Shown here piece by piece: positions 22,927-57,970 of a stretch of DNA of 64,000 nucleotides. The position numbers were made by a program, and so were the translations under genes. The stretch comes from Bolinopsis microptera (taxonomy: Eukaryota; Ctenophora; Tentaculata; Lobata; Bolinopsidae). Location: the NCBI RefSeq assembly GCF_026151205.1, contig NC_087075.1:5324858-5388857 (forward strand), in the 5' to 3' direction. The notes under the pieces were generated by a model. The model did no database searches. It was not told where the DNA came from and saw only the letters and a list, made by a program, of their open reading frames with translations. Within the stretch, counting starts at the first letter, position 1. Each line of letters opens with the position of its first letter.

Positions 22927-23015
22927 GGCTCGGGTTAGGGTTAGGGTTGTGGTAAGGGTTATGGTTAGCTTCGGCCCTTTGGGGTTATGGTTAGGGTTAG
23001 GGTTGAGATTAGGGT
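22927..23015 (+). repeat. Interstitial telomere-like (TTAGGG) tract
   Basis: GGGTTAGGGTTAGGGTT, a degenerate middle, then GGTTAGGGTTAGGGTTGAGA and AGGGTTT give roughly six TTAGGG matches. TTAGGG is the common metazoan telomere repeat. It is embedded in the element, so it is probably part of that repeat rather than a fossil chromosome end. Confidence 0.85.
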
Positions 23016-23250
23016 TTATGTAAAACCGTTTTGTACGGCTGCAAAACCATAAATACCAAAGTCACGTGAAATTTTTGGGCGAGCGAATTAGTAAGAGCCT
23101 TGATTCACGATGTCAATCCTTCGCATCTCTCCGATCTGCATGTGGTTGCGAGAAGCATTATTTGATGCGCGCGCGACCCAGTAGTGCATCGCGCTACAAG
23201 TAAGAGCCATATTACTTTACACGATATATCGTGTAATATAAGGATTGTTC

Positions 23251-33300: not shown

Positions 33301-36300
33301 TTGAGGATAAACTGATTCTACCTGAGTACAAGGTTCGTTATTATTATATTTAGAAGATCAAATTAACTCATCAATGTTCTTTTCAAGAGGATATTGTTTT
33401 TACTTCATAGAAATTGTACAGTCTGCTATATTAGTCGAGAATGCATCTGTGAATTATTTGTGACTGAGCAATACATTCCAGTACATACAAGATTGTATTC
33501 GAGATAACAGAATACCAGATCTTATCCTTACTACCTACGAAGAGTTGATAAAATCAAACCAAATCACCATGAAACCAAGCAACACCTCTAGAGAAACATT
33601 CAAACAACACGAGATATTCCCCATGTCACCTTTACACTTCGAGGGTGAGTAGAATGAGTAAAATTATTAACCTTTATCGAACTGTTTTCCGAACATCTAA
33701 CTTTTGTTTTGGCGCAATGGGGCATTTTTGTTTGTATCGACTTCCTCACCTATTTACGTAGCGCGCTTGGTCAGAGAGTTGACTTAACGGCGCGCACGTG
33801 ATTATCTTTTTTATGGAAGACAGCTAGCTAGTATAAGCTATACTAGTGCGCTGCATGCACGCAATTGTGCATGGAAATTATATTATGGCATATTCCAGTA
33901 GCCGGTAGATGAATCCATAAATTTGGAAACAAATTTAAAATCATGATTTTTGGTGCTTCTTTGATGTCAAAGTTCAAACTTCTATTAAAATTCTCTGGAC
34001 CAATATGGTCTTACCAAATACTGGTTGACAAATACTGGATGAGGGTTTGAACTTTGATAAGGGTGTAACGAGTCTGACAAGCTTGCCGTATATGTACAGA
34101 TCACGTGACATAAAACTAAAAATGAAGAAACTTTTTTCTTAATCGGGGTTTGACTGTAGTCATAAATTAGTCTCAAAATGAAATTATAGAGATGATACAA
34201 AATATAAGAACTCTTCGATTATCAATTCTTATACTGTTATATACCATTTTTACTGTCAGTAATAGGAATTAGGAAATGGGAAGTTTGGATCGCTAAAGTT
34301 ACTATAATCAAGGAACATAAAATCAAACTTATAAATTTCATAAAATTGATCTACTAGTCCTTTATCCAACGTAGAAAATAATTCCCTTGCTTTAACTACA
34401 GATTCCTGTAATCTCGGATCACTTTGTCCGTCATAAGATCCTGGCAAAGTAAAATCTATTCCAACTTCATTAAAAAAATCAGTCGACATTTCTTCTGCAA
34501 ATTCCATTGGTATGATGTAGTCATACCGGACTTTGGTCACCGTCAAAAACATGTGCTGAGGTCTGAAGTGAAGATCATCGATCATCGAATGCTTGTTTTC
34601 TACCGTGTGCCTAACATACTCCTCAAAAGTTGGAGTATATACCCCGATTTGTATCATGTACTTTAGCTTTTCTATAGGAATGTGAGACACATTCCGCTCG
34701 GATTGAATGATCTCAAACCGAAGGTCCGGCAAAGTATACCCATGTTTTATCTGGACACATTGTAAGCCACATAGTTTCTGTCTGTATGCAGAGACAGCTC
34801 TAACCCAAGGGTTCCTCAATGCCACAATACTGGTAGCTGTTTTGATCCTGTCGTCGTATTTCCCGTTCCATGTTTTAGCGAAATTTGGGAGTTTGTAGGG
34901 TGAGATATCGGAATGTACATCGGAAAGATACTTAAGTCTACCTTGCAGCACGCCCTCTGCTTGTAGGAAGAGTTCTTTCCAGTGCGAACATCCTGTTTTA
35001 GGTATTCCCGTAAACACTATGTTCATCTTCGGGAAATAATACGTTGCGTAGGATGAGGCATGCTTTCAGTGCAAATCGGATGGCGACTGGTAATTTTTAA
35101 TCAATTCCCCATATATACTGTCAGTTTGTTCTTTTATCCACTTTTGAGATGGGATCTTGTAATCGACCTTTGATGAAACTGCTCTTAAATTGAGCTTCAA
35201 GTTTGTCTTTACGATGTTTTGGTAAATTTCCAATAAGGAGAAGCAAAGAGCAATCAAAATGAAAACTGATTTGTAGAATTTTAACGATATCATCAATAAA
35301 CGGGGAATTTAACGGCAACAAACGGTTTAACGCGTGCGTTTTCGTACTGGTCCACAATAATATTAATAAAGCCACAGCAACATTTGTAATGATAGTCGTA
35401 CAAACTTCCATTGGTAGGGATCTGGAGATGTAATTATAGTGTCTGTTTATCTTGGTATGTCAGTGTTCATTAGATTATTCAGAAGATTGGTGTATCGGAA
35501 GGCATTCGCCCAATCGCAGTGAGGGGGTATCAATTTCAATTGTGATCAACCCGTTTATGCTTCGATCGACAAGAAGGTAACAATTTGAAACCGGGGAAAG
35601 ACCCTTTTTTAACAGCTTGTGAAAAAGTTGCTGCTATGGGGGGGGGGGGGGGGGGGGGGAATCTGGCAATGTGAAGTGACAATTGTAACAATTTTGGACC
35701 AGTGGGCGAAGTTTTAATGTAAATTTTGCATGATAATCATCTTCTGATTGTCATGTCATCGTTTACTGCAAAACTAAAATTCAAAAGTTTTTCACTGTGA
35801 TGATGATTGATTAATGAGATCTCACGAAATCATGAAAATTTCGTGCGAAAAACTTTTATACCATATATTTCGGTTCTCATATTGAAGCTTATTAAAATTT
35901 GGAATTTACAGTCGACCGCTTGAAGCTGACATATCTCTACAGAGCAAGTAGCAACCTGAAAAAGAGATGTTAACCGCCAAAAAATAAGCTAATCCGAAAC
36001 TGTGGAATAACAATAAATGGGGCCCATTTCTCTTTGGTGTTATTTTCATACTATTTTCGGTTTGAGCGTGTAGTTTGGGGTGAAACAGCTAATAAAAAAG
36101 ACGACAAAATAGTGCCTCTATTATGTTAGTCAAAAATTATTTATTTTAGTCAAAAATTACCAATAATACGATGGGTCCCCTGAATTTTAAAATACAAACT
36201 TGAATAATTATCATGATTAAAAAAATAAAATATGCTCGACCATTAATTAAATCGACCATTAATTAAATAAAAAATATTGGAAAGCAAAATTTAACAATCA

Positions 36301-39300
36301 TCATATCAAATCTAAAATATTGAAACATCACCATTTACTATAAAGACGACGTTTTATCACTATCTGACTGTGGTTCATTCGTTCTTATCACATTACTTAT
36401 TATTAGTGTATCGGAATACACAGCTGTCCTCTTATTTAGCACATCTATCTCTGTATTATTACTATCTCTTTCACTTTCACTATCTCTTTCTCTTTCACTA
36501 TCTCTGTCCCTTTCTGTTTCTGTTTTAACACCTTCACTGTTTATTTCTCCTCCTCTAAAAACTCCAGCCTCCAGTTCTATGACCTCCCCCTCGACCTGGA
36601 CTGGTTCTGGTGTCTTGTTGTTCAGTTTAAAGAGTAACAGTGCTAATAGTGCGAAAATCAGGAGGAGGAGAAGTGCGCCAAATACTTGAGACAGCGCCAG
36701 TATAAGTCCTGAAATAAATTAATTTTATTAGAGATTTAATGCGAAAAAACTGTTTCTCCTGAAAGTTACCAACGTCCTTAATGAAGAATCTCATCAAGTT
36801 ACTTTGAGATTGTATCGATATAGACTGGACTTTATGCGCAGTTCTCTGTTTCTACCGTGATGTTTAAAAAGATTTTCTGTGAAAACACTACCTTTGTTTT
36901 TGTCGTTAGGAATCGCTGTTCTAGGTTCGCCCGTCCCACCACCGTCTCCATCACCTTCTGTATCATCATCATCAACTTCCGTTCTTACATTGCGTAACGT
37001 TGTGGTACTATAAGTAAATACAGTAGTCCCCCTCGTCTCATCACCACTTCTAGAACTATCACGTGACTGTGAACTTGATGCCGTACTCCCGGAGTACCAG
37101 ATAGGTACTGGAGCTGAAGTGGTCGAGGATCCTGGGTCTGTCACGGTATGCTTAGTTTGGGTACCGGACCTTGAGTCTGTGTTCACTGCTGTACCAGTTA
37201 CCCGGGGTTGAGGTGTAGTTATCTCTGGTTGAGGGGTTGTGTTTTCTGGTTGAGTGTTTCCTGGTTGAGTGTGCTCTGGTTGAGAGGTGGAGGATCCACA
37301 GCGTCCTACGCAGGTGGCTTGAGTTGTATCTGTGGAGTGTATCTCTGTTGTTACCTTTTCCGGGGTAACAGCTTCAGGTTCTGTGGTGTTGCGTTTTTTA
37401 GTGTGAGACTTTGTGGTGTTATGCTGTAAAGTGCGAGGTTTGGTTGTATTACCACCGGAGGTTGCTGGTGGATGTTCTGTTGTATTACCACCGGAGGTTG
37501 CTGGTGGATGTTCTGTTGTATTACCACCGGAGGTTGCTGGTGGATGTTCTGTTGTATTACCACCGGAGGTTGCTGGTGGATGTTCTGTTGTATTACCACC
37601 GGAGGTTGCTGGTGGATGTTCTGTTGTATTACCACCGGAGGTTGCTGGTTGATGTTCTGTTGTATTACCACCGGAGGTTGCTGGTGGATGTTCTGTTGTA
37701 TTACCACCGGAGGTTGCTGGTGGATGTTCTGTTGTATTACCACCGGAGGTTGCTGGTGGATGTTCTGTTGTATTACCACCGGAGGTTGCTGGTGGATGTT
37801 CTGTTGTATTACCACCGGAGGTTGCTGGTGGATGTTCTGTTGTATTACCACCGGAGGTTGCTGGTGGATGTTCTGTTGTATTACCACCGGAGGTTGCTGG
37901 TTGATGTTCTGTTGTATTACCACCGGAGGTTGCTGGTGGATGTTCTGTTGTATTACCACCGGAGGTTGCTGGTTGATGTTCTGTTGTATTACCACCGGAG
38001 GTTGCTGGTGGATGTTCTGTTGTATTACCACCGGAGGTTGCTGGTGGATGTTCTGTTGTATTACCACCGGAGGTTGCTGGTGGATGTTCTGTTGTATTAC
38101 CACCGGAGGTTGCTGGTGGATGTTCTGTTGTATTACCACCGGAGGTTGCTGGTGGATGTTCTGTTGTATTACCACCGGAGGTTGCTGGTGGATGTTCTGT
38201 TGTATTACCACCGGAGGTTGCTGGTTGATGTTCTGTTGTATTACCACCGGAGGTTGCTGGTGGATGTTCTGTTGTATTACCACCGGAGGTTGCTGGTTGA
38301 TGTTCTGTTGTATTACCACCGGAGGTTGCTGGTGGATGTTCTGTTGTATTACCACCGGAGGTTGCTGGTGGATGTTCTGGGAGGTTGTCCAACAGTTGGC
38401 GTGGTAGCAAAAGGGTAGCTGTCGGTGATGTTACCCGTACACAACACTACCGCAGAGAACATCAGCAACAAAACGTACATCTTGAGGAGTGGAAATGATT
38501 ATTTTCTGTCTGTGTAAAAATCTACTCAACCTCCTGATTGCTTTAGTTGGAGATGGGTGAAATACGACCCATGGTATGATGCTGTGGTGATGTGATGGGG
38601 ACGTTACGATGTAGTGTTGAGTGATCTCTGTGACGTCATTGTGGTTAGCTGGAGGAAGCTAACACTACCATTTCTGGGCTTAGAACTGTTCATGTTTGCA
38701 ATCTCGTGCATATTTCTTTTTGTCACCCGTCGCGTTGTCATGACTTATTTTTCTACTCAAAGCACTGATTTAAAATTTATTGATAAGATTTATTTGGTAC
38801 ATTACCAAATCACCTTTGGGGCGTCGGAAATGACATATTGTCCTAAGGTGTGATGCAATGAAAATGTAGGAAAACAATAGAGTAATAGATAAAATGAACA
38901 GAAATTTAGCGAAAATATGGATATATTGAGAAACATTCAAACACCGATTTACCTCGGTTTAAAGTAATGTGCAAACATTATTTACTGGAACTTTCTTAAC
39001 TGAGCTTGATATTAAATATTTACTGAGCTAACTGTATATTTAACGTATCGGTATAGATTATAGATACCTGTTATCTTAAAGTATAGAAACCAAAATCCTA
39101 TAATCCGAAAATTTATCCAAATTTGAGATTCCTGAAGAGCCCGGCTACAATAGTATCACACCATAAAATAAACGTTAAAATCAAGCTGCTAGTTTCGTAT
39201 GCACTATTGTCAAGCTAGGCATTGAAATTAAAATGCACGTGCAACCAACGAGTATCAAATAAAACACAATAGAATAATAATTATTGATATTCTGAATATC

Positions 39301-42300
39301 CATCACTTGTCAAACTACCAATCATTAACTCAAACCAACAGTAAAATAACAAAACTCAACACAAACACCCTCCAGTTAGAAAGTTGCTTAATAAATAACC
39401 AAACCACGTGCAAGTTTCGACCAATCTCCACTTTAAAGATAAGAATCGGCTCCCAAAACAAAAACCAATCTAGAGAAACCCTCTCCAATGACCGATGACG
39501 TTATACACCAGATATTTGACGGGCTTATGTTTCAGGAAACCAGGGAGACAAGTACTCGAGCGAGATCAAGGAGAAGTTTAGTGTCTGTGTCCGATCACTG
39601 TCTGATCTAAACCTTGATCGGAGCCATCTGGTAAGTAGACCCGCTAATTAGTTAATTAGTTAATTAATCAAATTGTTTTGTACTCAGATGACGAAGTTGC
39701 TGTAAGGTGGCATTGGATCGAACAAATCGTTGCGTAGCCGTATCTAGGGTTGTTAATTAAACAATTTTATTCCATTAAATGGACGTTTTGGCTTGGTGAG
39801 ACCCGGGAAAAGTCACACACGATTCAACTAGACGCCACCTGATCACCTCACTCGATTGTTCGTAGGGTTTAATCTCATTATATTTTTGTGGTCATATTGA
39901 AATATTCTAAACTCTCGTGTATTTCTAATATTATTGAGTTAATATTATTAAGTTCAGTTGGAACGGTGTGATCAGTGATGTCATGAAAGGATTGTTGAGG
40001 GTATTTTATGAACTATGAAGATACTAGGAAGCCCATGGACACAAAGAGAAAGCTAACCTATGTGACCTATGTTGAGTTTCGTCAAAACTTGACGGGGCCA
40101 TCACATCTTTTGACCACCCCATAGCGAAGTAAAGTCTCGCTCGTTGCGCCAGCATAGCAGAGAATTTGTATTTGGAGCAGTATATTCCTGATCGAAGGCT
40201 TATCAGAGACTAGGGAGAGACAACATGAATTTTGTGAGTCTATCTTTGAAAGTTTGAAGTGCTCCAGATCTTGAATGACATTCAAATAGTAGGGGATTGC
40301 ATTCCACAATTTAGGTCCCTGAACTGCAAATGAGTTGTCAAACAAGGTGAGGTTTGCTGTTGAACTGGTTCTTTTGATGGAATTACTGCAAGGTTTCCAA
40401 ACCTTGGGTGTAAAACAAATAGAACGTTCAGATCATTGCTGGTCTTTCCGTGGAGGATTTTCCACATATGGAGAATGATGAATCGCTCCCGCCTTCGTTG
40501 AAGAGACATCAGAGATAGATAGACCAGGCGATCCCAGAGTGGAGATCGCGCATTCCTGATATTCTGGCGGTGAATGCTTTCTGTACACTCTCCAGTTCTT
40601 GGATATCGCTGATTTTTGAGGGATGCCATAATGGACAGCAATATTCAATCAGACTTCGAACCATTGATTTGTATAGCGTCAGCATGATGGAGTGAGATCG
40701 TGTGTGAAATACACTGAGAACCCATGATGACTGAGAAGTATTCTGTGATTATCAGTTTTTATCGCATCAAAAAATGGGGGGGGGGGGGGGGGGGGGGGGG
40801 GGCAACCATATTAAAGTATATCCCCGGGTCAAAATCGGAAAAAAACCTACATTTAATAATATACTTTAATATACCTACAATTAATAGATTAGAAGATAAG
40901 CCAGTTGCTAGTCCCCTGAACTCATACTTCATATATTTTGGCTCATAAATTGGTCAAGTATCAATATCTTTGAACTAAACTAACTTTACATGAAAGGTAA
41001 ATCTAATCTATACATTAAATAAAACAAAATTGTTCGCATATTTTTTTATAATGTAGGTATATTAAAGTATATTAAAGTATATGCCCCCCCCCCCCCCCCC
41101 CCAAATATCCAAACCTACCGAAGAAACAGCCGCTTATTGATATGTAAAAAACTCCTCACAACGTAATCACAAAAAAAAACATATCATAATGTCGCCCTAA
41201 GGGGTTTTAATAACATATTTTATTATATTACATGTACCTTACTATATCGTATTTTTAATCAAGTTATACCACAACAAGGATTTAAATCTTCCATTTTTGC
41301 GGGGATATTTACTTTTTGATGATATTTTTAGAAGGTAAAGGTAAAGGGAGGTAAATAATGGATCTCTAGAAGTATAATTATTATATATCTTTATATTTTC
41401 AGTTTCTAAGAGAAAAGATCATTACAAATAAGCTAGTTTTATTATTTTTATAAACATATTTTATGGTCAATATTTCAAGGTCCATATTTAATGGTTCACA
41501 CTTTTAAAACTTGGGATGGACACACATTTTTTCAAGTAATTAAACGTTAATTATATCACAATATTTCCACTGTAGGGTGAATCGATCAGGAGGACTGAAA
41601 GAAAAGTGTCAGTGTTTCAGCAAGCATTTCATTGTGTAGTAAGGTGTAGCTGTTAACTCAGTAGAAAATAGTACCTGCATCACTGTGTACTATATATGTA
41701 TAGTGTATTGTGTACTATATATGTATAGTGTAGTATGTACTATATGTATAGTGTACTGTATGATTCCTGTATGAGATACCATGAACACTACAAGATTAGC
41801 ATACTCAATACTCGTATAATTCATTTGACTATGTATTAAATGTTCATTATTTTTGTTCATTGTAGTGTTGAGTTGAATTATGGACAGTTAAAATCCCGAT
41901 TTACGTGCGTAGCGTAGATTCTCCTCAATTTAACGGGAAATTCCGTTTTAACACTCTCAATAAGTCTGGGGTTGACCAGATGTTATTATTATTGTACGTG
42001 TTTTGTTGTATCTGTTCTGAATTTTGGACTCGTTTAACCGATGCAACTTAACGCGAAGAAGCTTGAGAAGACGTTAATTTTTTTTCTGTGTATGTTTATG
42101 CAGTGGTAAAAGCGGGGTTCGAACACGTGACAGCGATTAACCAATGAGATTGTAACATAAGATCATTGCTTTATTGAACAAAACCTTTGTCACAGTTTTA
42201 ATGTGAACTTCATTTACCACTTATCACTAATTCTAATGTGAATTTATTGAAGTCTACGATTAATCAATCTAATAATTCCATTTGTGCAGTTATTATGTTT

Positions 42301-45300
42301 AAACAAATTAAATAATTAATTAATTAATTAAGCTAATCAACTAATTTCCCAGGTGCGAGTGTACGTAGCGCTGTACAGTGGCAAGAACCGTCTTGAACAG
42401 CTCGTTACGTGTGAGAAACCCATAACTTCTGTTATTGAATGGAATGAAACACTTACTTTCAAGATAAATATTTCTGATCTGCCCAGGTAATAGATATTTT
42501 CAGGTAATAGATATAGGCATTCAAAATTTTAGGAAATTAAGATGTTTTAAGACATTGTAAAAAAGTATTCAATGTTCTGACTCATTTAAAAAAAACAAAT
42601 AACAGTGTTGTTGACCCAACCGTATTTAAACTAACAAACCCAACGAACAGGAACGCAAAACTCTGTTTTTCAATACAAAAACGTCGTAAAACGGACGACA
42701 CAAAAAAGAAGAACAAACAAAACGCAGCAGACGAGCAGATTATAGTACCCAGCAAGTCAGCTAACCTGTATTGGATTAACCTGACTGTGTTCGATTTTAA
42801 GGGCACTCTGAGGCAGGGTAAGTTGCTGGACGTAATGACGCGCACTGTTCACTTGTAAAACATGTGTTATTTTGTTACAACGCCGATTATTGTGAAGGAG
42901 TCGTTTACTTTAAGGGGAGATACACCAAAACCGTTTTTGCTCCGAACATCGATTTTATTTTATATTATTTTTAAATAGACAAAAAGAATAAGATTGTACA
43001 CCTTCAAAAATTTTAAAAAATATTCCCTCCTCGAGAAAAAAAATATTTTTCTTTTTCGAAAATTTTTAAAATTTGGAGAAGTCTGTCACTGTAATACCGA
43101 TAGTTCGGCCATTTAAAAAGTTTTTTGGCTGATTTTTTTACTGAACATTACTTACACTCCGTACTAGAAGCCATTGAAAGGATTATATAATTGAACAATA
43201 AATGACCAAGTTACAGACCGAACAAGGTGAAAAAAGAAAAATTGGGATTTTTGCCTATCACCAAAGTTGTACATTTCACCACCCGCCCAGGTCATCAGAT
43301 ATCGCTTCAAAAATTCTTGTGAGTGTAGTTAATGATCATGGCAAGCTTTTTGGAACCGGATTTCTCTCAATTTTGAGTTTTAAGCTATGCAATGTGGCCT
43401 CAAACGACTTAGTAAAATTCATCGTAAAAAAGGGCAAAAAAGGCAGATTTAAGGCTTAAAATGCCTATAACTCAAAAAGTATCAGTTTTTTTGAAATAAT
43501 TTTTACAGGATCGTAATCAGCTTGGTAAGACGAATCTTTTAGTACCAAATAGGTGCTTTTAGAAGACAAATTGTCTTAAATAATTTTCTAGCTCGAACAC
43601 AAGGGTCCCCCCTTGTATAAATTTTGTACAAATTATACACATTTTTTTACAAATTTTGTGGCTTTGAATATTATAAATGTCGTACTAAAAGATTCGTCTT
43701 ACCAAGCTGATTACGATCCTGTAAAAATTATTTCAAAAAAACTGATACTTTTTGAGTTATAGGCATTTTAAGCCTTAAATCTGCCTTTTTTGCCCTTTTT
43801 TACGATGAATTTTGAAGTCGTTTGAGGCCACATTGCATAGCTTAAAACTCAAAATTGAGAGAAATCCGGTTCCAAAAAGCTTGCCATGATCATTAACTAC
43901 ACTCACAAGAATTTTTGAAGCGATATCTGATGACCTGGGCGGGTGGTGAAATGTACAACTTTGGTGATAGGCAAAGATCCCAATTTTTCTTTTTTCACCT
44001 TGTTCGGTCTGTAACTTGGTCATTTATTGTTCAATTATATAATCCTTTCAATGGCTTCTAGTACGGAGTGTAAGTAATGTTCAGTAAAAAAATCAGCCAA
44101 AAAACTTTTTAACTGGCCGAACTATCGGTATTACAGTGACAGACTTCTCCAAATTTTAAAAATTTTCGAAAAAGAAAAATATTTTTTTTCTCGATGAGGG
44201 AATATTTTTTTAAATTTTTGAAGGTGTACAATCTTATTCTTTTTGTCTATTTAAAAATAATATAAAATAAAATCGATGTTCGGAGCAAAAACGGTTTTGG
44301 TGTATCTCCCCTTAAGGGTACTCTAAGGCAATGTACGCTGTCTTGAGATTTAGATTGGTTTTCGATTCTATTTGAACTCGTGTTTATTCATATTTGATGC
44401 TTTTTGATAAATAGTCTGGTTGATTCCCCAACGTATTAATGCTCAGAACTTCGCTGTTTTTTGTAGCGACTTTTTTCCCTTGTGTCATAAGGGCACGTAC
44501 ATCCAATCAATTAGATAACCAATTAATCAACAACATGTTGTCAACCCCCTGCTGGCTGCTTTAGTAACAACGATCAGTTTCACTAGTTGAATATTATGTA
44601 CATAACAATCACTTATATTTGTACTGACAAGACGTCATGAATCATTGTCATGGATTATTAGTTAAATATTACCCAAATTGTATAAAGTCACACAATACTT
44701 CCTTGTTTTAAACTAAGCACAATTCCGTTATTAATACCAAGGTTATAAAAAATTAAAAAATGTTTCCTTGTGTTTAACAAACCACTGACAGGAGCTATAG
44801 AACAACATGTTTGGACGGACCTGAGATCAGAGAGTGGATTCAACTACACCGGACCTAGCTTCCCATACGGGCTTTCTGACACACCCATATTTACAGTATG
44901 AGCCTTGTTTTCTGCTTTTAATTTTTATAAGGACAAATTCATATTCCTTCTCCCATTATTTCCACTTCCCTAGACCGAACATTCACTGTGTATGTTCTAA
45001 CCACCACCCCTCTCCAGGTGGAACTACCAGAAAGCAAGTCCCCAGTAAGGTTCTACCCACTAACCACCACCCATCTCCAGGTGGAGCTACCAGAAAGCAA
45101 GTCCCCAGTAAGGTTCTACCCACTAACCACCACCCCTCTCCAGGTGGAGCTACCAGAAAGCAAGTCCCCAGTAAGGTTCTACCCACTAACCACCACCCCT
45201 CTCCAGGTGGAGCTACCAGAAAGCAAGTCCCCAGTAAGGTTCTACCCACTAACCACCACCCCTCTCCAGGTGGAGCTACCAGAAAGCAAGTCCCCAGTAA

Positions 45301-48300
45301 GGTTCTACCCACTAACCACCACCCCTCTCCAGGTGGAGCTACCAGAAAGCAAGTCCCCAGTAAGGTTCTACCCACTAACCACCACCCCTCTCCAGGTGGA
45401 GCTACCAGAAAGCAAGTCCCCAGTAAGGTTCTACCCACTAACCACCACCCCTCTCCAGGTGGAGCTACCAGAAAGCAAGTCCCCAGTAAGGTTCTACCCA
45501 CTAACCACCACCCCTCTCCAGGTGGAGCTACCAGAAAGCAAGTCCCCAGTAAGGTTCTACCCACTAACCACCACCCCTCTCCAGGTGGAGCTACCAGAAA
45601 GCAAGTCCCCAGTAAGGTTCTACCCACTAACCACCACCCCTCTCCAGGTGGAGCTACCAGAAAGCAAGTCCCCAGTAAGGTTCTACCCACTAACCACCAC
45701 CCCTCTCCAGGTGGAGCTACCAGAAAGCAAGTCCCCAGTAAGGTTCTACCCACTAACCACCACCCCTCTCCAGGTGGAGCTACCAGAAAGCAAGTCCCCA
45801 GTAAGGTTCTACCCACTAACCACCACCCCTCTCCAGGTGGAGCTACCAGAAAGCAAGTCCCCAGTAAGGTTCTACCACTAACCACCACCCCTCTCCAGGT
45901 GGAGCTACCAGAAAGCAAGTCCCCAGTAAGGTTCTACCCACTAACCACCACCCCTCTCCAGGTGGAGCTACCAGAAAGCAAGTCCCCAGTAAGGTTCTAC
46001 CCACTAACCACCACCCCTCTCCAGGTGGAGCTACCAGAAAGCAAGTCCCAGTAAGGTTCTACCCACTAACCACCACCCCTCTCCAGGTGGAGCTACCAGA
46101 AAGCAAGTCCCCAGTAAGGTTCTACCCACTAACCACCACCCCTCTCCAGGTGTAGCTACCAGAAAGCAAGTCCCCAGTAAGGTTCTACCCACTAACCACC
46201 ACCCCTCTCCAGGTGGAGCTACCAGAAAGCAAGTCCCCAGTAAGGTTCTACCCACTAACCACCACCCCTCTCCAGGTGGAACTACCAGAAAGCAAGTCCC
46301 CAGTAAGGTTCTACCCACTAACCACCACCCCTCTCCAGGTGGAACTACCAGAAAGCAAGTCCCCAGTAAGGTTCTACCCACTAACCACCACCCCTCTCCA
46401 GGTGGAGCTACCAGAAAGCAAGTCCCCAGTAAGGTTCTACCCACTAACCACCACCCCTCTCCAGGTGGAACTACCAGAAAGCAAGTCCCCAGTAAGGTTC
46501 TACCCACTAACCACCACCCCTCTCCAGGTGGAGCTACCAGAAAGCAAGTCCCCAGTAAGGTTCTACCCACTAACCACCACCCCTCTCCAGGTGGAGCTAC
46601 CAGAAAGCAAGTCCCCAGTAAGGTTCTACCCACTAACCACCACCCCTCTCCAGGTGGAGCTACCAGAAAGCAAGTCCCCAGTAAGGTTCTACCCACTAAC
46701 CACCACCCCTCTCCAGGTGGAACTACCAGAAAGCAAGTCCCCAGTAAGGTTCTACCCACTAACCACCACCCCTCTCCAGGTGGAGCTACCAGAAAGCAAG
46801 TCCCCAGTAAGGTTCTACCCACTAACCACCACCCCTCTCCAGGTGGAGCTACCAGAAAGCAAGTCCCCAGTAAGGTTCTACCCACTAACCACCACCCCTC
46901 TCCAGGTGGAGCTACCAGAAAGCAAGTCCCCAGTAAGGTTCTACCCACTAACCACCACCCCTCTCCAGGTGGAGCTACCAGAAAGCAAGTCCCCAGTAAG
47001 GTTCTACCCACTAACCACCACCCCTCTCCAGGTGGAGCTACCAGAAAGCAAGTCCCCAGTAAGGTTCTACCCACTAACCACCACCCCTCTCCAGGTGGAG
47101 CTACCAGAAAGCAAGTCCCCAGTAAGGTTCTACCCACTAACCACCACCCCTCTCCAGGTGGAGCTACCAGAAAGCAAGTCCCCAGTAAGGTTCTACCCAC
47201 TAACCACCACCCCTCTCCAGGTGGAGCTACCAGAAAGCAAGTCCCCAGTAAGGTTCTACCCACTAACCACCACCCCTCTCCAGGTGGAACTACCAGAAAG
47301 CAAGTCCCCAGTAAGGTTCTACCCACTAACCACCACCCCTCTCCAGGTGGAGCTACCAGAAAGCAAGTCCCCAGTAAGGTTCTACCCACTAACCACCACC
47401 CCTCTCCAGGTGGAACTACCAGAAAGCAAGTCCCCAGTAAGGTTCTACCCACTAACCACCACCCCTCTCCAGGTGGAGCTACCAGAAAGCAAGTCCCCAG
47501 TAAGGTTCTACCCACTAACCACCACCCCTCTCCAGGTGGAGCTACCAGAAAGCAAGTCCCCAGTAAGGTTCTACCCACTAACCACCACCCCTCTCCAGGT
47601 GGAGCTACCAGAAAGCAAGTCCCCAGTAAGGTTCTACCTACTAACCACCACCCCTCTCCAGGTGGAGCTACCAGAAAGCAAGTCCCCAGTAAGGTTCTAC
47701 CCACTCCTCACTGCCCGGAACTTGGCACTACAAGATACCGGACCTGGGTCACTGAGTCAGGCGGAACAGAGTGAGCTGACAGTCGCGGAGAGAAGGAAGT
47801 TGGAGACTCTACTGAACCACTCATTTGGGACTTATCAGGTTTGTAACTACAAGACATCACATGTTCACAACTACAGACAAGAGCCCGTCTTTTGTGTGCA
47901 AAAGCTTTCATGCTCGCCTATTTCTTGACCCTTTAGTTTTCTGTCTCTATCCAATTAGCAGTCAAGGAAAAAAGTCATGCACCAAATGGGCAATTGTTAT
48001 TAATTTGTTAATTCTGTAAAATGTGCTAAGAATATTAAATTTCTTGTTTCACCGAAATTTTTTATTTCATTGGAATGTTCTATTGTAACCAGTCACTCTT
48101 ATTTATATTAACATGATTAAATGATAGCCAAATATACAATGAAAATGTACAAGAAAAAGTCTTACTATTCAAAAAATCATCATTTGTACATAATTCTACA
48201 TGCATCAGTTGACAAAATCATCGTTTAATCGATTCTTATCTATTCTTTGCAAAAAATAAATAAATAGCCATAATGGATAGCCTGAAAAATGAAATATAAA

Positions 48301-51300
48301 AACTTGAAAATTACAACTTAAATTTTAAAAAGACAACAGATATAAAATCCCAAAAAATAGGGCGGAACAGGTTAAAAAAACAGAAAGTCCATGCAACAAA
48401 ATATACAGCAAGCCACTATGAGCTCTACATCAAGCTGATAAAATCGACGATAAAATATACATTGCAGTTGGTTATTCACTCACTCACACTGCATCATTAT
48501 TAATCATAAACCACACCGTCCACCAATCACCAATCACCAATGGTCATAACCGGTTGGCGACTGATGAGGAGTATGATAAATTATTAACAATTCTGAGGTT
48601 CTCAGCTGTTCAAGTTTTAAGCAGTACAGCCATTTTGAAATAAGAGGAAGGGAAGCTTATTAATGAGGCACTGAGGTTACTACTTAGTACCTCAATAGCT
48701 ACTTCATTAATAACTTAAAGTGCAATTTAAGTACCAACAGCGTTGCTTCAGCTAATATTCTCATTTAAACAAAGCCTACATTAAATTCTCTACTAATGAC
48801 ATAATTTCCTTGGAACCTTTATTCATAATAGTGATGGTTGTTTTAAAATACTGTTTTGCTTAACTTTAAAGAATATTAGCTTTATATATAGAACAGTTTC
48901 CGAATGCCAAAACTTAAAATAAAACTTACAGCATATTTTTTTAAACTACAGCTTCGTCTCGAACATAAACCCTAACTGGGACGTCAAGTTTGCTTGGCTT
49001 TCTTTGCTTTCCTCTTGATCAGCATCACCACCCTTTATATCCTGAACCTCAGCTTTTTTTGGTTCTTGGAGCTGATCGGCATCTTCACTGTTTTTCTCTT
49101 GACCCTCAAGTCCGTTTTCTTCTTGCCCAATGTTTTCTTCTTTGCCAGTGTTTTCATTGTTGCCCTTATCGTACTCATCATAGTCATCAGTATCTTGACT
49201 GTTTTCCTCTTGAACTTCTTCGGTTTTTTCACTGATTTTCTCTTGAGCTTCTTCTTGAATTTTACCATTTCCTTGCACCCTTATCACATCTTCGTTTTCA
49301 TTACCATACTCAGCGTCCTTAAGATCTATTTTTATCTCATTATTTTTCTCTTGAACCTGATCTCCCTCTTCCGTCGATGTTGCCTTTTCAATTATCTTCG
49401 GACCGTTTTCAACATCTTCATAGATGACACCTTCATCTTCTTTTGGGTCAGTTGTGTAATTTTGAGCAGTAGTTGTGTAACAGTTTGACACAGCAGAAGA
49501 AGCCTGAGTAACACTTGCTTTACCTCCCTTCTTTTGCTCCACACCTAACAAAGCAAGGGTGTGACCCCAGACATCTTCTTGCAAAAGTGCCATGCCAATA
49601 AACAACAGAGGTCCCTGGAGGCCAGTCATCACAATAAAGAGATATTGCATGACCACAGCTCCCGGACCAACTGCCAGAGCTATTACAACCCACGGACACC
49701 CAACTGATACAGCTACCAACGCCATAGCCTTTGCAGTCTTCGCCAACTTTGGATCACCACCACCAGAGGTTGATGATTTCCAGATGACCCTGGCTATCAT
49801 TACAAAAGACACGCAGTTAAAGAGAAGGATACTGTATGCTGGCACCATAAACCCCAGAAACCTCCACGGATCTTCAACCCAGCAGTTAGTCCCGTTCTTT
49901 CTAGCTGCTCCGATGTAAGGTACAGAGTAGTCATCCCCGTTCATTGAAAGTGAGGTTAAGAAGGCTGCCAATGGGAATACTAGGGGAAACAACCAACTTA
50001 GTGCTGTGCACTTGTGAATAAAAAACTTGTCTTTCTTTCCGTAGCTCTTCAATGCCATCACTATCTTCCCGAAGAAGGTCCAGGCAGTGCAACCCATCCA
50101 ACAAAGTGCTGACAATAAGAAGTATTGTGTGATGATGACCCCTACAACACATCCCGTGTTCAGTGACAGAAGAGGGTTTCCAGCCTCGTCCACACTGATT
50201 TTAGTGGAAGCAGAGAGACATGTAAATGATACGTTACCTAGAATTAGAGCTAGGATGAGATTCAGCTGGATCAGTACTACTTGTTTGCTTCGGAGCTTCT
50301 TGAACGGGGCTATCAGACAGAAAGTTAGAACCAGGAAGATTATGTTTATCCCAAACATGACATAGCTAATAACATCCTGGGTTGGGTCTGTTACTTTAGT
50401 CGGGCTGAGCAGGACTGCAAAGCTAGTGGTGTGGGTGCAGGTGCAGGTGCAGGTTTTGTCTTGTTGGAGAGTTGTTGTGCAGCCGTCAGTTAGCCACTCG
50501 TTAGTTGAGATGTTCAGGTAGCCACACTCTCTCTTGGTGGTGTATCCGGGGAGATTGGGGACTTCTTTTTCCTGGAAAATCAAAGAGAAGTCCAGGTCGT
50601 TTCTTTCTATTTCGCTGTTCGTGTTCATGAAGTTGAGCGACACTATAGAGGAACCTACGGTTGTGTTAGGAGTCTTGGGTATTGGCAGGATACTTTTGTA
50701 GGATTCGTCCATGACTGCAAGCTTGGTGGTTTTCCCTTTTTGGTTTCCTAACTTGAGTGTGATGGGGGGAGCGGTGTTTGGGACTTTGATGGACAGTTCT
50801 TCTTCTGATGAAGTGAGAGATTGCATAACAATCGAGTTGGTATTGATAGTCATGTCATCTTTTAAAGACTTTGACATTGTCTCCAAAATGTCTATAATCT
50901 CCGATTTCTTTTCATCAGCTAAAAAATCAGGTTCACCTTTTTTCAAGATTTCCATAGATTTTGCCATGCTCAAACTGAGATCCTCTACCTCTTCAGATGA
51001 GTAGTCTTTAATGTAGTTTTTGCACGCTGAAAGAAGGTCGACTATGTTACCAACATCACTGGGAGACGGGATCACTTCATCACCAATTTCAGCTATTGAG
51101 CCCATAGCTTTCCCCAACTCTTTTTTATTTTCTTCAAACGATAGTTCGGCAATTTCTTTTGCATCTTGAGTGTACTTTGATAGAGGGGTACTACAACTTT
51201 CTGTGTTGGTGTACGAGTCCCATTCACCTGAAGCCTCGCACATCTTGTACATTTTCTGACTTTCATTCTCTGTGCCCGAACAGCTTACTATACCAGTGCT

Positions 51301-54300
51301 TCCTGCTGAAGTTTCAGGAAACTCTATTTCTTCTCCTCCATTCAACCATGATATCTTAACTTTGATAGCACCACACTTTGCACCTGCCTGTATATCACAC
51401 TGGGTTCTATCTGGGGTAACTGTTCCTGCACAAGACATGCACCGAGTTTGTTGAAAGTAAGGTTGGTATTCAGATGCATCACAAGGTTTGCAGTTGGGTC
51501 CCAATCCCCCGTTCTGCGAGAACCAGCCTGGATTGCAGGGAGCTGAAATTGTGTGTTTATTTTTATACTCATACTATATTATTTATAATGCTTACTACAC
51601 TCTTTAAAAATTCACAGGCTAACTCGGGACGTCAAGCTTTAACTCTATCCCACAGGGGGATTTCGTAACCGAGAAGAATATAGTATTTTGAATGAGTTCT
51701 CTCAAATAAAGGACCACTTTAAATGCTTGTAATATGATTTGTTATTGAGAGGAACAAATACTGTATAATGCATGATAAAACTTACCTGTGCATTCTGTTC
51801 TTTCCTCGTTAGAAACCGTTCCATCAGCACAGACTTTACAGCTGCTTTCTCCTGACTGTCCTGTCTGATCATTGTACTTCCCTGCAGGACACAGCTCACA
51901 ACTTGTCATACTAACTTCGTACTGACCCTGTAACAGCAGATAAATAACACACACTAATAATAATAATATTTAAACTCAAGAAAAAACACATTGAGTAAGT
52001 GAGCGGTAACAAGATGAACGGAAATTTTAAAAATAAAATAAGAAACTAACCACGGGGCATTCTGTGCAAACAGACGCTCCAGCAGCAGACATCCATCCAG
52101 AATCACATGGAATACAGTCGTTGTCAGATATCCCTCGTCTCTCACCAGCAGGGCAGTCTTCACAAGTATTACCAGTACTATCTCGTATCTTGCCCTGGTA
52201 TTTAGCTTATAATTAGCAAGGCCAAACACAATAACAGTTAATTAGTTTACAGTTGAAATAAGAAAATTACAGTTCGAGATATTATTATTCCACTTACCAC
52301 ATCACACATCAGACATTCTATTTTGTCCGTGGTGTACTCCTTCATATGAGTGCAGCTGTGACAGTAGTCCGAACTCTCTGCTGTGTTACGGGTTCCGTCC
52401 GGGCAATCTCTACATTCAACTTTGGTGCATGTTGAGGGATCAGTTACAGCGACAGCAGTGGCAGACGCTCGTTCAGGGTTAGCAGGATAGTTGCAGTCCG
52501 CATCAACGCCTTCTGCATAATATTCCTGTCCCTGAAAGAAAGAACAGGTTTCAATATACAATAAGATAAGTAAAAAGCTAGGAGTCCTCCATCTCTGAGA
52601 AACCGAAATATTAATTGTCATTATCAGAAACTTCTCTGAACACAATAGCAGTCTTGCAAAAAGGATCTACAGTGAAATAAACAACTAAAACCCAAATTAA
52701 GTATATCATTCGGGGTCGTTCACATAATATTACGCAATCACTTTTTGAACAATTTTTAACCCCCCCCCCCCCCCTCCGTTATCAGTTTTACACATAGTTA
52801 TTGTATCAAAATTACACTAGCGTAATCATTTGGAAACCTCCCCCCTCCCCTCGGCTGATTACGTAATATGTGAGCAACCCCTGAACCCCTTATCACCACT
52901 CTTAAAGTACTCACAGCTGGACACTTAACGCAAGTTCCTTTGTCAGCGAGGATAACTGTCGGAGCAGCACACGACTGACACTCGTTCATCTTCTTGTGGT
53001 ATATTGTCCTCGTGTAGAAGATCTTCTTCTCTTTGTTGTCACACTGGGTGCAAGCTTTAGCTTGTTCTGGGTCTGAAGTGAAGTCTGTTCGTGCGTCGTG
53101 TGAACCTGAGATGAGAGGGACATATTTTCTTTAGTGCTCTTGACATTGAGGTTCAGATCAGATCACAAATCGTTTGAAGATCCCTATTATAACTTAATTA
53201 CACTACAGTGTACTTTCTACTGATTCAATTGAATAAACAATAAATATTTTGCATTAAAGCCAGAGTAGAAATTGTTAATAAAAGAAGATTGTGGGCTGTA
53301 CATACCATCATCACAAACTTTACAGCCATCTCTTGCCGTGTCACTGTGGGTACCAGTGTCTGTGTTGTAGTATCCCAAACCGCAGGGATAGGTTGCTGAA
53401 ATTAATTAATTAATTAATTAATCAATTAATTGATTACTTTGTTAGCATATTATTCTAGAGGTGTTATTCTGGTTTATCTCATGAGTAAAACAGTTGTAAT
53501 ACTAGATATTAGAGATAAGTACTAAGTAGATACAAATGTGTTATTATGTTCTTCATAGTCATTTGAGACCTTGGCTGACCCAACTTACCCCAAGTTTTTC
53601 CGACCACGACAACTTCAGCAAGCCCTCCTGACCCAGATTGGCGATCCCACATGATGATGACTTCTGTTGCAGCAAGTCTTTCCTGGCAGACGAACTCGTA
53701 ACTATCCGTACCTTCACTAGAATTGTTACCGGCTGTACATGGGACCTCTTCAGTCAGGTTATTGTACTGGGCATCTGATTTTTGGGCACTTGTGTCTTTT
53801 ACGTACACCTGAAATATGAGCTTGTCAGCAACATTGTCTACAAAAAGACGATGTTATCATTTTTAAGTTGAATTAAATTTCTCTGGAAATGATATTTGTA
53901 AAAGCATCTTCAAATCTCCTATAGTTTCTGTAATGTGTTACACACAATATGATTACTATTGTTATTACCTTCCACCCTGCAATGGAGATGTCAGTGCTTG
54001 TTGCAGAGAGGATAACTTTGTAGATCCCTTGCCTTTGCCACCATTTAAAAGTGAACGGTGCGTCATCACTGCTCACTGTCCTTTCCAAGTTCATATCTTT
54101 TAATATACCGTCGTTGCCATTAATGATTTCGGCAGTTGTTCCAGAGAGATTCTCGAATCCGTTCAAGTCTGGTTGGGGTTTTTAATACTTCAATAGCGAG
54201 AAAATAATATTAGTTCAGATAAAATCGCAAATGAAGCTTCATAATCAATCAGTCAAACGTGCTGATTCCTCGGGCTATTTAATTAACATTGCTCTTGAGG

Positions 54301-55442
54301 GTAGTTTTTATTTTGCCCCCATTTGTATTGGTGATACCGCTAGAAATTATGAATCCTGTAAGGACTTAATGCATCAAACTGTATATTCAACAACACCCAG
54401 CTAAGGTATTAATAGCCACTGACAGTAGTTCTCCAGTTTCCTCTGAACGTTTCACTTTCAGCTTGTTATATTGTTGAGACTACATCGTCTCAACAATATA
54501 GACAACTCACCACATTCAAACCCCTGTTCATTGTAAAATCTACAACTTCCACGAGCGCAATTGTGTAAAATAAATAGTAGGATTCAAATTAGAGGGCTGG
54601 ATGTTAAAATAGGGAGCTAAGGTTGAAACGGCAAAACGCGGCTACGGCTGTGATGTACCTGACAGTACATGAAAAAGCACATCTTGGCAATGCGCCAATA
54701 AATTATAACAATAACCCCCCTCCCCCCCCCCCCCCCCCACCCAGATGATATCTTGGCAATGCGCCAATAAATCATACAATAACACCCCCCAGATGACGGA
54801 GGAAGATAACAACTTCCTGTGGAAGAACCGAGTCCACTGCAGATCCTACCCTCACTCCCTCCCCAAGCTCGTGTTGTCCACCAGTATGGACTCTTTGGAG
54901 AAGTCCACCCAGCTCTATACTCTGCTATTAGATTGGCCTCCTATCAGTGTGGTTACTGCGCTGCAGTGTTTTCTGCATGAGATAAATGACCCTCATATTA
55001 GGGAGGTAGGTTGTGATTTTAGGAGAAATTTAAATTTTGTTTGTATTAATTAATTGTTTAATTAATTAATAAATATTGACATTCTTTGTATACCCTGTTA
55101 GAAACAGCCGAACCAGACATTTTTTGCCGAACGCGAACAAACCGAACCGAACTTTCAGTTTAAAACAAAAATGTGTTTCCTAATACATTGCTTGGTGTTT
55201 TGGCTCAATCATAAAGACTGGATCCCATATTGCAAAGTACAGCAAAATATCACGACTATAGTAATAGTATTAGAACATAATATTACTATTAACATTTGAA
55301 ATTTTGATGATATTTTATTATCCTTTCAGTTTGCAGTGTACTCACTCGACACACTGCTACCGGACGATATGGTCTGCCTATACCTGTTACAGTTAGTAGA
55401 GTGTATCAAATACGACCTGTACTTGGACTGTGCACTTACACG
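30329..55442 (+). CDS. PIK3C: Class IA PI3-kinase catalytic subunit p110, N-terminal two-thirds (about 670 aa in window)
   Basis: p110 phosphorylates PIP2 to PIP3 at the plasma membrane. Fifteen phase-closed exons: 30329-30481, 30804-30870, 31842-31960, 32214-32339, 32742-32934, 33011-33041, 33176-33332, 33482-33644, 39536-39630, 42353-42486, 42651-42817, 44792-44895, 47662-47838, 54793-55005, 55330-55442. Exons 1-4 encode the p85-binding ABD (VDVLLPIPKGIMISVKVNAD), which marks class IA. Exons 6-8 are the RBD (YLLKISGCEDYLFEDK; human YILKVCGCDEYFLEK). Exons 9-13 are C2 (EWNETLTFKINISDLPR). Exons 14-15 are the helical domain (MTEEDNNFLWKNRVHCRSYP, LLLDWPPI). The kinase domain is not in the window. 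Introns host two minus-strand genes, several repeats and part of an adhesion GPCR gene. The isoform (alpha, beta or delta) cannot be told. Confidence 0.9.
30512..30531. repeat. 20-base poly-G tract in p110 intron 1
   Basis: A G run, preceded by AGGGA, 30 bases after the donor of p110 exon 1. No matching poly-C end is seen. Confidence 0.85.
31036..31084. repeat. GTGAGGGAAA decamer repeat
   Basis: Four to five copies of a 10-bp unit in p110 intron 2. Each unit contains GTGAG, which resembles a splice donor core; no exon is associated with it. Confidence 0.85.
32943..32995. repeat. TTTCACTTTCTG 12-bp repeat in p110 intron 5
   Basis: About four units lie just after the donor of exon 5. The FHFL repeats read here belong to intron, not protein, if the 31-nt exon at 33011 is used. 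Confidence 0.8.
34256..35293 (-). pseudogene. Type II membrane carbohydrate sulfotransferase with an in-frame TGA at codon 76
   Basis: Golgi sulfotransferases of the Sulfotransfer_2 group (CHST8-14/HNK-1ST type) move sulfate from PAPS to glycans. Read as one frame from ATG 35293, the product has a short cytosolic end (MISLKFYKS), one membrane anchor (VFILIALCFSLLEIY), a stem, then a catalytic domain. The 5'-phosphosulfate-binding motif is VFTGIPKTGCSHWKELFLQ (family PKxxCTxWK), and the 3'-phosphate-binding motif is ALRNPWVRAVSAYRQKL (family RDPxxRxxSAYRxK). The frame is open from 35293 to 34256 except for TGA at 35068-35066, between stem and catalytic domain. No intron can remove it. ATG 35026 would give a soluble domain lacking anchor and stem. 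The gene is intronless and nested antisense in p110 intron 8. It is either a recently broken gene, a readthrough case or a sequence error. Family call is confident; functional status is open. Confidence 0.8.
35294..36337. other. Spacer in p110 intron 8 between two minus-strand genes
   Basis: Contains a 22-base poly-G run (35638-35659) and AT-rich DNA. A frame overlapping 35121-35411 on the minus strand is an antisense-frame shadow of the sulfotransferase N-terminus. Confidence 0.45.
35638..35659. repeat. 22-base poly-G tract
   Basis: A G homopolymer flanked by GCTGCTAT and AATCTGGC. There is no poly-C partner within view. Confidence 0.9.
36338..38480 (-). CDS. Mucin-like single-pass membrane protein with 12-aa tandem repeats
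   Basis: Exon 1 (38480-36892) begins with a signal-peptide-like MYVLLLMFSAVVLCTG. It then enters about 26 copies of a 12-residue unit, TEHPPATSGGNT (some EHQP), rich in Pro, Thr and Ser, with an NTT N-glycosylation sequon in each unit. A further Thr/Ser/Pro-rich stretch follows and then an acidic DDDDTEGDGDGGG patch. Exon 2 (36708-36338) gives a transmembrane helix (LILALSQVFGALLLLLIFAL) and a charged cytoplasmic tail with RDSERERDSE repeats, ending TSSL. This is the layout of a heavily O-glycosylated cell-surface mucin. Oddity: the signal-peptide frame is one base out of register with the repeat frame, so a frameshift, sequence error or missed exon lies between 38437 and 38400. The whole gene sits antisense in p110 intron 8. 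No named family recognised. Confidence 0.75.
37441..38384. repeat. 36-bp coding minisatellite, about 26 copies
   Basis: The 36-bp unit encodes the 12-aa mucin repeat on the minus strand. It is so homogeneous that five frames on both strands stay open. Variant units carry GGTTGATG instead of GGTGGATG, changing Pro to Gln (EHQP). Near-identity suggests active length change. Confidence 0.97.
38481..39535. other. Right end of p110 intron 8
   Basis: Probable promoter region of the mucin-like gene (minus strand) near 38500-38650, then AT-rich intron. The frames at 38614-38853 and 39307-39498 resemble no family. Confidence 0.4.
39536..39630 (+). other. PIK3C: p110 exon 9 (start of C2 domain)
   Basis: Listed separately because it is isolated by 5.9 kb and 2.7 kb introns. 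It reads KFSVCVRSLSDLNLDRSHL, matching the first C2 strand of p110 proteins, and its phases (1 in, 0 out) fit exons 8 and 10. Confidence 0.85.
40082..40690 (-). mobile_element. LINE RT C-terminal fragment, frameshifted
   Basis: On the minus strand the sequence reads a MVRSLIEYCCPLWHPSKISD segment (typical IEYC..W.P box after the RT thumb), then LESVQKAFTARISG, then RRRERFIILHMWKILHGKTS and FAVQGPKLWNAIPYYL, split over three frames. The frame breaks and 5' truncation mark a dead copy. It lies antisense in p110 intron 9. Motifs suggest a jockey/CR1-type element. Confidence 0.8.
40776..41102. mobile_element. 327-bp element bounded by poly-G (27) and poly-C (19)
   Basis: The same end structure as the element at 24562: a long G run at the left and a C run at the right. 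The interior carries ATATTAAAGTATAT motifs near both ends. AATATACTTTAATATACCTAC at about 40858 pairs with its inverse near 41053, giving a hairpin. The flanks (AAAT before the G run, AAAT after the C run) may be a 4-bp target duplication. There is no coding frame. Confidence 0.7.
41103..42352. other. Right part of p110 intron 9
   Basis: AT-rich with a tandem TGTACTATATATGTATAGTGTA repeat (about 41685-41760, shown here as a 22-base unit split as TGTACTATAT/ATGTATAGTGTA) and (TTAA)n before the exon 10 acceptor. No gene seen. Confidence 0.4.
42911..44315. mobile_element. Foldback element: 635-bp inverted repeats around a 136-bp loop
   Basis: The left arm 42911-43545 (starting TTAAGGGGAGATACACC) and right arm 43682-44315 (ending GGTGTATCTCCCCTTAA) are near-identical reverse complements separated by 43546-43681. 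The same 80-codon frame therefore appears once on each strand (43202-43459 + and 44023-43775 -). These are arm copies, not two genes. No transposase is present. The element lies in p110 intron 11, where transcription would give a long hairpin RNA. Confidence 0.93.
44987..47704. repeat. 63-bp minisatellite carrying the p110 exon-13 splice acceptor, 43 copies
   Basis: Each unit contains a pyrimidine tract and acceptor (CCACCCCTCTCCAG) plus the first coding bases of p110 exon 13 (VELPESKSPVRFYP). The first acceptor precedes 45018 and the last precedes 47662. That spacing equals 42 units less two bases, matching two single-base deletions seen near 45873 and 46048. One unit carries a TAG (46153-46155). 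From 46213 on, all units are open in the p110 frame. Units differ mainly at GTGGAGC versus GTGGAAC. The opposite-strand frames are shadows. Confidence 0.95.
47839..48945. other. Left part of p110 intron 13 and 3' flank of the adhesion GPCR gene
   Basis: AT-rich, no open gene seen. The 3' UTR of the minus-strand receptor gene begins at 48945 and reads leftward. Confidence 0.45.
48818..48823 (-). promoter_or_regulatory. Candidate polyadenylation signal of the adhesion GPCR gene
   Basis: AATAAA on the minus strand, about 125 bases past the receptor stop codon. Confidence 0.45.
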
Positions 55443-57591: not shown

Positions 57592-57821
57592 TCCTAATTT
57601 TAGAAGATTGGGAATTAACTGAGACAGATCAGAGAAACGCATGAGGGACACAGTACAGGCAGGTTGAAGCAATTAGAATAATTATCATCAAATACAAATT
57701 CTAAACAAGGGATAGTTAAAACGAACGTGCTAAATCACTCTACACTCGAACTTCGAGATTTTTCTTAAAGGACCCCCAACCGTTGAAACCAACTTAACTC
57801 GATATAGTTTCAACGGTATAT

Positions 57822-57970
57822 CGGTGTATTTTTGAGCGCTGATCCCAAATCAACCCACCTGACACAGGGTTAAAATGCTCCCCTGGCGAGTTATCGAGAG
57901 ATTGTTATTTTGTCTCGTTAGGGTTAAGGTTTTAGCATATGCTTCAGTTAGGGTAAGGGTTAGGGTTTTA
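57822..57970 (+). repeat. Dispersed repeat R1 with TTAGGG-like tail
   Basis: TCGGTGTATTTTTGAGCGCT, then ACAGGGTTAAAATGCTCCCC and GGCGAGTTATC, followed by GTTAGGGTTAAGGTT and GGTAAGGGTTAGGGTTTTA. It is the same arrangement as inside the element at 22791-23015. Confidence 0.85.

Follow-up and report, generated by a model that had tools for sequence, protein, structure and literature searches.

How is a 3′ splice site chosen when the site itself, together with the start of the exon behind it, has been copied dozens of times? The question is raised by a 64,000-nucleotide stretch of the genome of the ctenophore Bolinopsis microptera (assembly GCF_026151205.1, contig NC_087075.1, here C4; C4:5324858-5388857, referred to as the window), in which a tandem array spans the junction of intron 12 with exon 13 in a gene resembling the p110 catalytic subunits of class I phosphoinositide 3-kinases (PI3K). 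The array occupies 44997-47703 and, when split on the unit start, contains 43 units in head-to-tail order, of which 41 have 63 bp and two have 62 bp; Tandem Repeats Finder reported a period of 63, 43.0 copies and 99% matches over 44997-47705. With head-to-tail units within 10-100 bp and of high identity, it is a minisatellite, or variable number tandem repeat (VNTR). Each unit joins 21 intronic bases, CTAACCACCACCCCTCTCCAG, to 42 exonic bases and thereby repeats a CTAAC, a pyrimidine-rich tract, a CAG and the first 42 coding bases of exon 13; unit 43 continues unbroken into the remainder of that exon. The leading CTAAC, 17-21 bases before the exon, resembles a branch site. As the unit straddles an intron end and an exon start, the array is a mirage, the name given in amphioxus to a minisatellite across an intron-exon boundary (PMC3087553).

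We consider it probable that a tandem duplication across this boundary, apparently joined at a shared CT, was expanded by repeat turnover to 43 near-identical copies, each retaining a complete 3′ splice site, and that the last acceptor is the main one used, the other 42 being mostly removed within the intron and giving rise to minor leakage. The features on which this reading turns are listed below; they belong to a model of 13 plus-strand exons built from frame, splice sites and homology, with an exon numbering of our own.

44792-44895, plus strand: exon 12, with a phase-0 end at ACA|GTATGA, which scores lowest among the 13 modelled donors; aligns to the p110-beta C2 domain
44896-44996, plus strand: intron part upstream of the array, unique (sequence)
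44997-46191, plus strand: units 1-19, with acceptors leading to a stop or the wrong frame (unit split, reading frames)
46192-47640, plus strand: units 20-42, with acceptors in phase with exon 13 and stop-free, which would add 1-23 copies of VELPESKSPVRFYPLTTTPLQ
47641-47661, plus strand: acceptor of unit 43, CTAACCACCACCCCTCTCCAG, final in the array and presumed to be authentic (p110-beta junction alignment; score 8.8)
47662-47838, plus strand: exon 13, with the last C2 strand, the C2-helical linker and the helical start; 59 codons, phase 0-0, donor CAG|GTTTGT

The units are strongly homogeneous, 31 of the 43 being identical to the consensus. Units 14 and 17 are the two of 62 bp, with a 1-base deletion each, and the change G27A (GAG to GAA, silent in frame) recurs in seven units (1, 21, 22, 24, 28, 37 and 39). 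Private changes are C14A in unit 2, G25T in unit 19, which produces a TAG at 46153-46155, and C62T in unit 42, so that the array is bordered by a unit 1 with G27A, a unit 42 with C62T and a unit 43 of consensus sequence. The patterned order of the private variants argues against an assembly artefact, whether in the number of copies or in the array as such. Moreover, there is no N in the window or in any fetched stretch, and 2.7 kb can be spanned by single long reads. Even though an amphioxus draft genome is described as having held an aberrantly assembled mirage (PMC3087553), and a G-depleted part of the present locus, discussed below, is also suspect, we regard such an artefact as highly improbable.

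The genome searched comprised 264.65 Mb in 232 contigs, and the whole-genome DNA search scores only its best candidates. Among these, all 20 of 20 matches to a 188-base query from the array fell at the array locus. No second copy of the exon 12/13 region was returned: the DNA of 44300-44990 matches itself alone, and that of 47705-48940 finds a full match only in itself, the other 39 of 40 matches (best 40 of 492 candidates) covering query positions 189-398, a dispersed repeat. An array-free comparator copy was sought in this way and not found among the candidates scored. The 43-copy array of 63-bp units described in a first-pass annotation of the window is real and was found at a single locus, but its extent is 44997-47703 and two of its units have 62 bp; likewise, the unit does hold a full acceptor and the start of exon 13, with 42 coding bases instead of the approximately 45 given there.

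The p110 identity rests on the part from C2 to helical domain, whose best match in the PDB is p110-beta (E 3e-28), as the annotation had assumed, followed by alpha and delta, whereas class II members rank last among the best 60 of 96 PDB rows. Matches to PF00792 and PF00613 agree with a p110-type C2 and helical domain. With exons 1-13 as protein query, 11 of 12 matches in the genome are this gene and the twelfth is a 32%-identical paralogue. At the exon 12/13 junction, TVELPESKSPVRFYPLL pairs with HITFPENKKQPCYYPPF of p110-beta and leaves no space for a 21-residue unit; the alignment contains one single-residue gap, two residues upstream of the junction. Because the junction made by the last acceptor aligns to p110-beta without an inserted unit, the product with zero extra units is, by comparison with p110-beta alone, the ancestral protein, and on the same alignment the repeated coding part is assigned to the end of the C2 domain, the position already named in the annotation. 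Exon 13 by itself gives no PDB match up to E 1, and the lone peptide no Pfam match up to E 1. Its global alignment with the C7 paralogue is weak, with a score reached by 5 of 1000 shuffles, and the local alignment with the same paralogue falls short of the repeated part.

Reading each acceptor from the unit AG to 47838 divides the array in two. Those of units 20-43, 24 of the 43, whose first exon bases lie from 46213 to 47662, keep the phase and meet no stop up to 47838, whereas the 19 of units 1-19 are out of phase or stopped. These 24 acceptors, the phase-0 end of exon 12 in the exon model, and the TAG at 46153 with two 1-base deletions (units 19, 14 and 17) had all been recognized in the first-pass annotation. 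The openness of the frame is nevertheless within chance expectation and not remarkable, because 63 is a multiple of 3, 42 of these bases code already, and only seven new codons need to be without a stop, an argument that is our own estimate. We considered whether the placing of the frame-breaking changes points to selection for an open frame in the last 24 units and dropped the idea, since under random placement all three (units 14, 17 and 19) fall within the first 19 of 43 units with P ~0.08; we therefore make no claim of selection on the repeated frame, and this placing is no evidence that the last 24 units are translated.

These data bear on the isoform ladder put forward in the annotation, in which many of the 24 in-frame acceptors are used and 0 to 23 extra 21-residue units are inserted between the C2 and helical domains. 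We find this quite unlikely. The 24 acceptors are indeed near-identical, in frame and stop-free, and the insertion site is a domain junction, but an open frame is expected by chance. In its favour, a single AlphaFold2 run with five repeats and exon 13 returned two strands per repeat with a mean pLDDT of 65.4 and a pTM of 0.61; a search of PDB folds with this model, however, yielded no match at E<=0.001 (28 at E<=10), and AlphaFold2 is reported to give unrealistic beta-solenoids for perfect repeats (PMC11795689). Because of this reported bias the model was set aside. A known repeat domain in the translated array was also sought and rejected, no Pfam family reaching E<=0.01 for 46213-47838.

As in the splice-site-bearing VNTR of ABCA7, every unit contains a complete splice signal, here an acceptor of good quality. 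On a matrix made from the 11 other acceptors of the gene it scores 8.8 and beats 10 of these 11 (leave-one-out scores -2.5 to 9.9); of the 1252 other AGs between 30 and 56 kb, 0.96% score 8.8 or more. The last acceptor is most likely the main one, because it alone precedes the whole exon and its donor: if exon and donor define the acceptor, the last would win, and if all acceptors were equal, an isoform ladder would follow. With the last acceptor, the intron measures 2766 nt. Leakage, most likely minor, would insert a single 21-residue unit, or a few of them, in frame; it could also yield transcripts with a broken frame, from units 1-19, or leave out exon 13, and as exon 14 starts in phase 0, such skipping would preserve the frame. 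The decoy acceptors may in addition lower splicing efficiency as copy number rises, a point on which precedents disagree. RNA folding that hides the upstream acceptors was considered as a further factor and rejected, since four units have a minimum free energy of -49.9 kcal/mol compared with a shuffle mean of -54.3 kcal/mol (z 0.98) and form no special structure.

We favour the last acceptor with minor leakage because published cases lean that way. For the amphioxus mirages, reverse transcription PCR is described as suggesting undisturbed regular splicing; their length is also said to vary from one haplotype to another, and they have been proposed as a source of new introns (PMC3087553). As in the present array, the BflGb6 repeats combine the 3′ end of an intron with the 5′ part of an exon and have AG signals in many units, and the 63-bp unit lies within the 10-72 bp range of the Adh3 units; yet the BflGb6 haplotypes have 6 and 3 units of 150-160 bp, 81-100% identical, compared with 43 units here (PMC3087553). 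The present case further differs from those of amphioxus in its PI3K-like gene and its frame-keeping unit length. Constructs with a duplicated beta-globin acceptor, whose upstream copy was followed by 14, 55 or 205 nt of exon, were reported to be spliced at the distal site exclusively, although very inefficiently; like the units here, their acceptors are identical, in tandem and parted by exon pieces, but they are two artificial copies in an extract (PMC5389562). The VNTR at the donor of ABCA7 intron 18 also starts at an exon edge and has units that carry the splice signal of that edge, and retention of one unit was given as 2 +/- 1%, independent of length. Unlike the array described here, it lies on the donor side, its 25-bp unit is intronic and retention breaks the frame (PMC5954066).

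The amphioxus and globin precedents thus appear to favour regular or downstream splicing and to leave upstream acceptor use unsupported, and retention in ABCA7, which ends at one unit and ~2%, likewise argues against a ladder. A stronger version of the ladder, in which a length-variable acceptor array sets the amount and form of the PI3K catalytic subunit, with 0-23 units heritable via copy number, we hold to be very unlikely; none of the mirages described in PMC3087553 is said there to yield a distribution of isoforms through copy number. In the open-licence PMC literature, we found no boundary minisatellite with this many acceptors, in a PI3K gene and in frame. A minisatellite in an interferon-induced transcript reportedly repeats donor splice sites and is counted as a relative by its title alone. 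Chicken MUC2 was considered as a related case and found not relevant. The annotation's remark that it knew of no described acceptor-bearing VNTR in a PI3K gene agrees with the literature searched, but the kind is known from other genes: the array is a large member of the boundary-spanning minisatellites, and what is new is its copy number, the kept reading frame and the gene.

Donor-like sites inside the unit bring in a further explanation, namely that the array gives rise to mini-exons or a new intron, the first acceptor being used and the rest of the array removed afterwards. Three candidates are present in each unit, AAG|GTTCTA (5.7), CCA|GTAAGG (1.4) and CAG|GTGGAG (-1.6), as compared with 1.6 to 12.3 for the gene's 13 modelled donors, of which exon 12's own is the minimum. 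CCA|GTAAGG splits the unit into a 27-nt mini-exon and a 36-nt remainder, and would give VELPESKSP exons and introns of 36+63k nt, all in frame, with a score close to the 1.6 of the exon 12 donor. There are precedents as well: in potato, a duplication across an intron-exon boundary, together with a cryptic GTAAG donor in its exonic part, gave a gene a new intron, and splicing across tandem AGGT repeats is reported for two genes of fission yeast (PMC4974935), while a route from mirage to intron was proposed in amphioxus (PMC3087553). The potato case shares with this locus the copied branch site, tract and AG together with a cryptic exonic GTAAG, but it is a single duplication that made a new intron (PMC4974935). 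Both AGGT and GTAAG occur in the consensus unit, with weak donor scores. Among 1461 decoy GTs, 16% reach the score of CCA|GTAAGG and 37% that of CAG|GTGGAG; the best internal donor, AAG|GTTCTA, has a score reached by 2.7% but splits the unit into 32 and 31 nt, so that its 32-nt exon loses the frame. We judge this explanation decidedly improbable.

A number of points weigh against main use of the last acceptor in a functional gene. The splice matrices were built from only 11 acceptors and 13 donors. The first acceptor would give an intron of 122 nt (44896-45017), which resembles the gene's shorter introns (119-402 nt in seven of 12 measured intervals, two of the 12 concealing unmodelled exons), and if intron definition prevails in this organism, this acceptor would be chosen and the protein truncated, as translation then stops after 287 further codons, a stop that the first-pass annotation overlooked. 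The length of the upstream exon piece is reported to affect acceptor choice (PMC5389562), and two U2AF35 were reported to be bound by a construct with a strong duplicated acceptor. In ABCA7, the alternative forms together exceeded the canonical one in 90% of BA10 samples, mainly through skipping of exon 19, and this skipping rises with VNTR length (PMC5954066). Arrays of the ABCA7 type can therefore disturb splicing strongly, the opposite of what the mirage report suggests. The remaining points concern the integrity of the gene, which comprises these further features:

30329-33644, plus strand: 5′ part of the gene, seven modelled exons, exon 1 matching a paralogue (exon model)
42353-42817, plus strand: two C2-domain exons, 42353-42486 with the PF00792 match and 42606-42817 (exon model, PDB alignment)
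51475-62771, plus strand: outer part of the plus-strand arm of an inverted duplication (minus-strand counterpart at about C4:5560474-5604441)
54793-55005, plus strand: exon 14, helical domain, phase 0 (PF00613 match, exon model)

The phases of the modelled exons fail to join at 32934-33176 and at 33644-42353, where at least one exon is needed in each, in the part of the gene expected to encode the Ras-binding domain and the beginning of C2; bridging exons were sought by modelling in both intervals and not found. Missed exons, sequence error or decay may account for the unjoined phases (32935-33175 and 33645-42352). In addition, the assembled plus-strand gene ends in the N-lobe of the kinase, so that a continuous kinase domain is absent, a discontinuity that the first-pass annotation, in presuming an intact gene, had not considered. 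From 51475 on, 3.6 kb past exon 13, the sequence recurs in inverted orientation on the minus strand; this copy has its outer edge near C4:5604441 and its inner edge near 5560474, and the array lies outside the duplication. The matching pieces are about 80-97% identical and include helical and kinase N-lobe exons of p110-like type. Only one set of exons 1-13 was found in the genome, on the plus strand and beside one arm; the catalytic-loop exon and the two preceding it were found on the minus strand only, beside the other arm (C4:5559050 onward). Exon 13 is consequently 186 kb from the catalytic-loop exon, on the opposite strand. The sole other DNA match outside a dispersed repeat, C4:5438856-5439272, ends before the catalytic exons (best 40 of 69 candidates). 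Translated searches of the plus-strand arm gave N-lobe exons only and no catalytic exons, and a Pfam kinase search here gave minus-strand matches only, although it missed the N-lobe exons and is blind to some short ones. As the kinase domain is discontinuous in the assembly and an assembly fault is suspected, we call the gene p110-like.

As assembled, with neither the catalytic exons nor the two unmodelled ones, the gene may be broken. An inversion between the arms would then have parted the 5′ half from the kinase, and the array would drift in it without consequence. The single plus-strand set of exons 1-13, the restriction of the catalytic exons to the minus strand and the gaps in the exon model all speak for this course of events. 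Comparison of the arms does not: over 221 codons they differ by 20 synonymous and 4 non-synonymous changes (dN/dS 0.049; the first 11 codons of one kinase exon, where the plus-strand copy has an extra 36 bases, were omitted), whereas ~41 non-synonymous changes are expected with one neutral branch (Poisson P about 2e-13). Both arms have thus been under purifying selection. Furthermore, the plus-strand arm stops in the N-lobe, at C4:5439272, and is followed by ~2 kb of G-depleted, A/C-rich sequence (about C4:5439457-5441557), in which a run of 676 bases from C4:5440026 has no G. A comparably low content of G or C occurs in 15 of 2022 300-base steps over 207 kb, 12 of them in this stretch, which looks more like an assembly fault than a natural break. 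An already broken gene is thus unlikely in our view. Because purifying selection has acted on both arms, the simplest reading suggested by these data is a working gene whose arms lie in a faulty or haplotype-mixed part of the assembly. With ~117 kb of spacer outside the sequence read, a recent true inversion may instead have split the gene.

Several other elements are found within and around the gene. Upstream of exon 12, a fold-back element presents nearly the same frame (MTKLQTEQGEKRKIGIF...) at 43202-43459 on the plus and at 43775-44023 on the minus strand, ~0.3 kb apart. The 8.7-kb interval between p110-like exons contains a minus-strand sulfotransferase frame at 34259-35065 (Sulfotransfer_2, E 3e-21). 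A second tandem repeat, of 26 36-bp copies with 98% matches (37443-38379), lies inside a 550-aa minus-strand frame (36797-38446) that is Thr/Pro-rich (EHPPATSGGNTT) and mucin-like by eye, with no Pfam match at E<=0.01. The intron between exons 13 and 14 includes a minus-strand exon of an adhesion-type G-protein-coupled receptor at 48949-51573 (7tm_2, E 8.5e-21; GPS, E 7.4e-8; HRM under its cut-off). About 15 degenerate copies of an interstitial TTAGGG-like repeat are located at 22923-23016.

With this locus, a very large, nearly perfect and frame-keeping boundary minisatellite in a signalling gene is added to those described. Its 43 near-identical acceptors in a shared frame represent a natural test of position alone in 3′ splice-site choice. 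If copy number altered p110 output, the array would, hypothetically, provide length-dependent control of a growth pathway.

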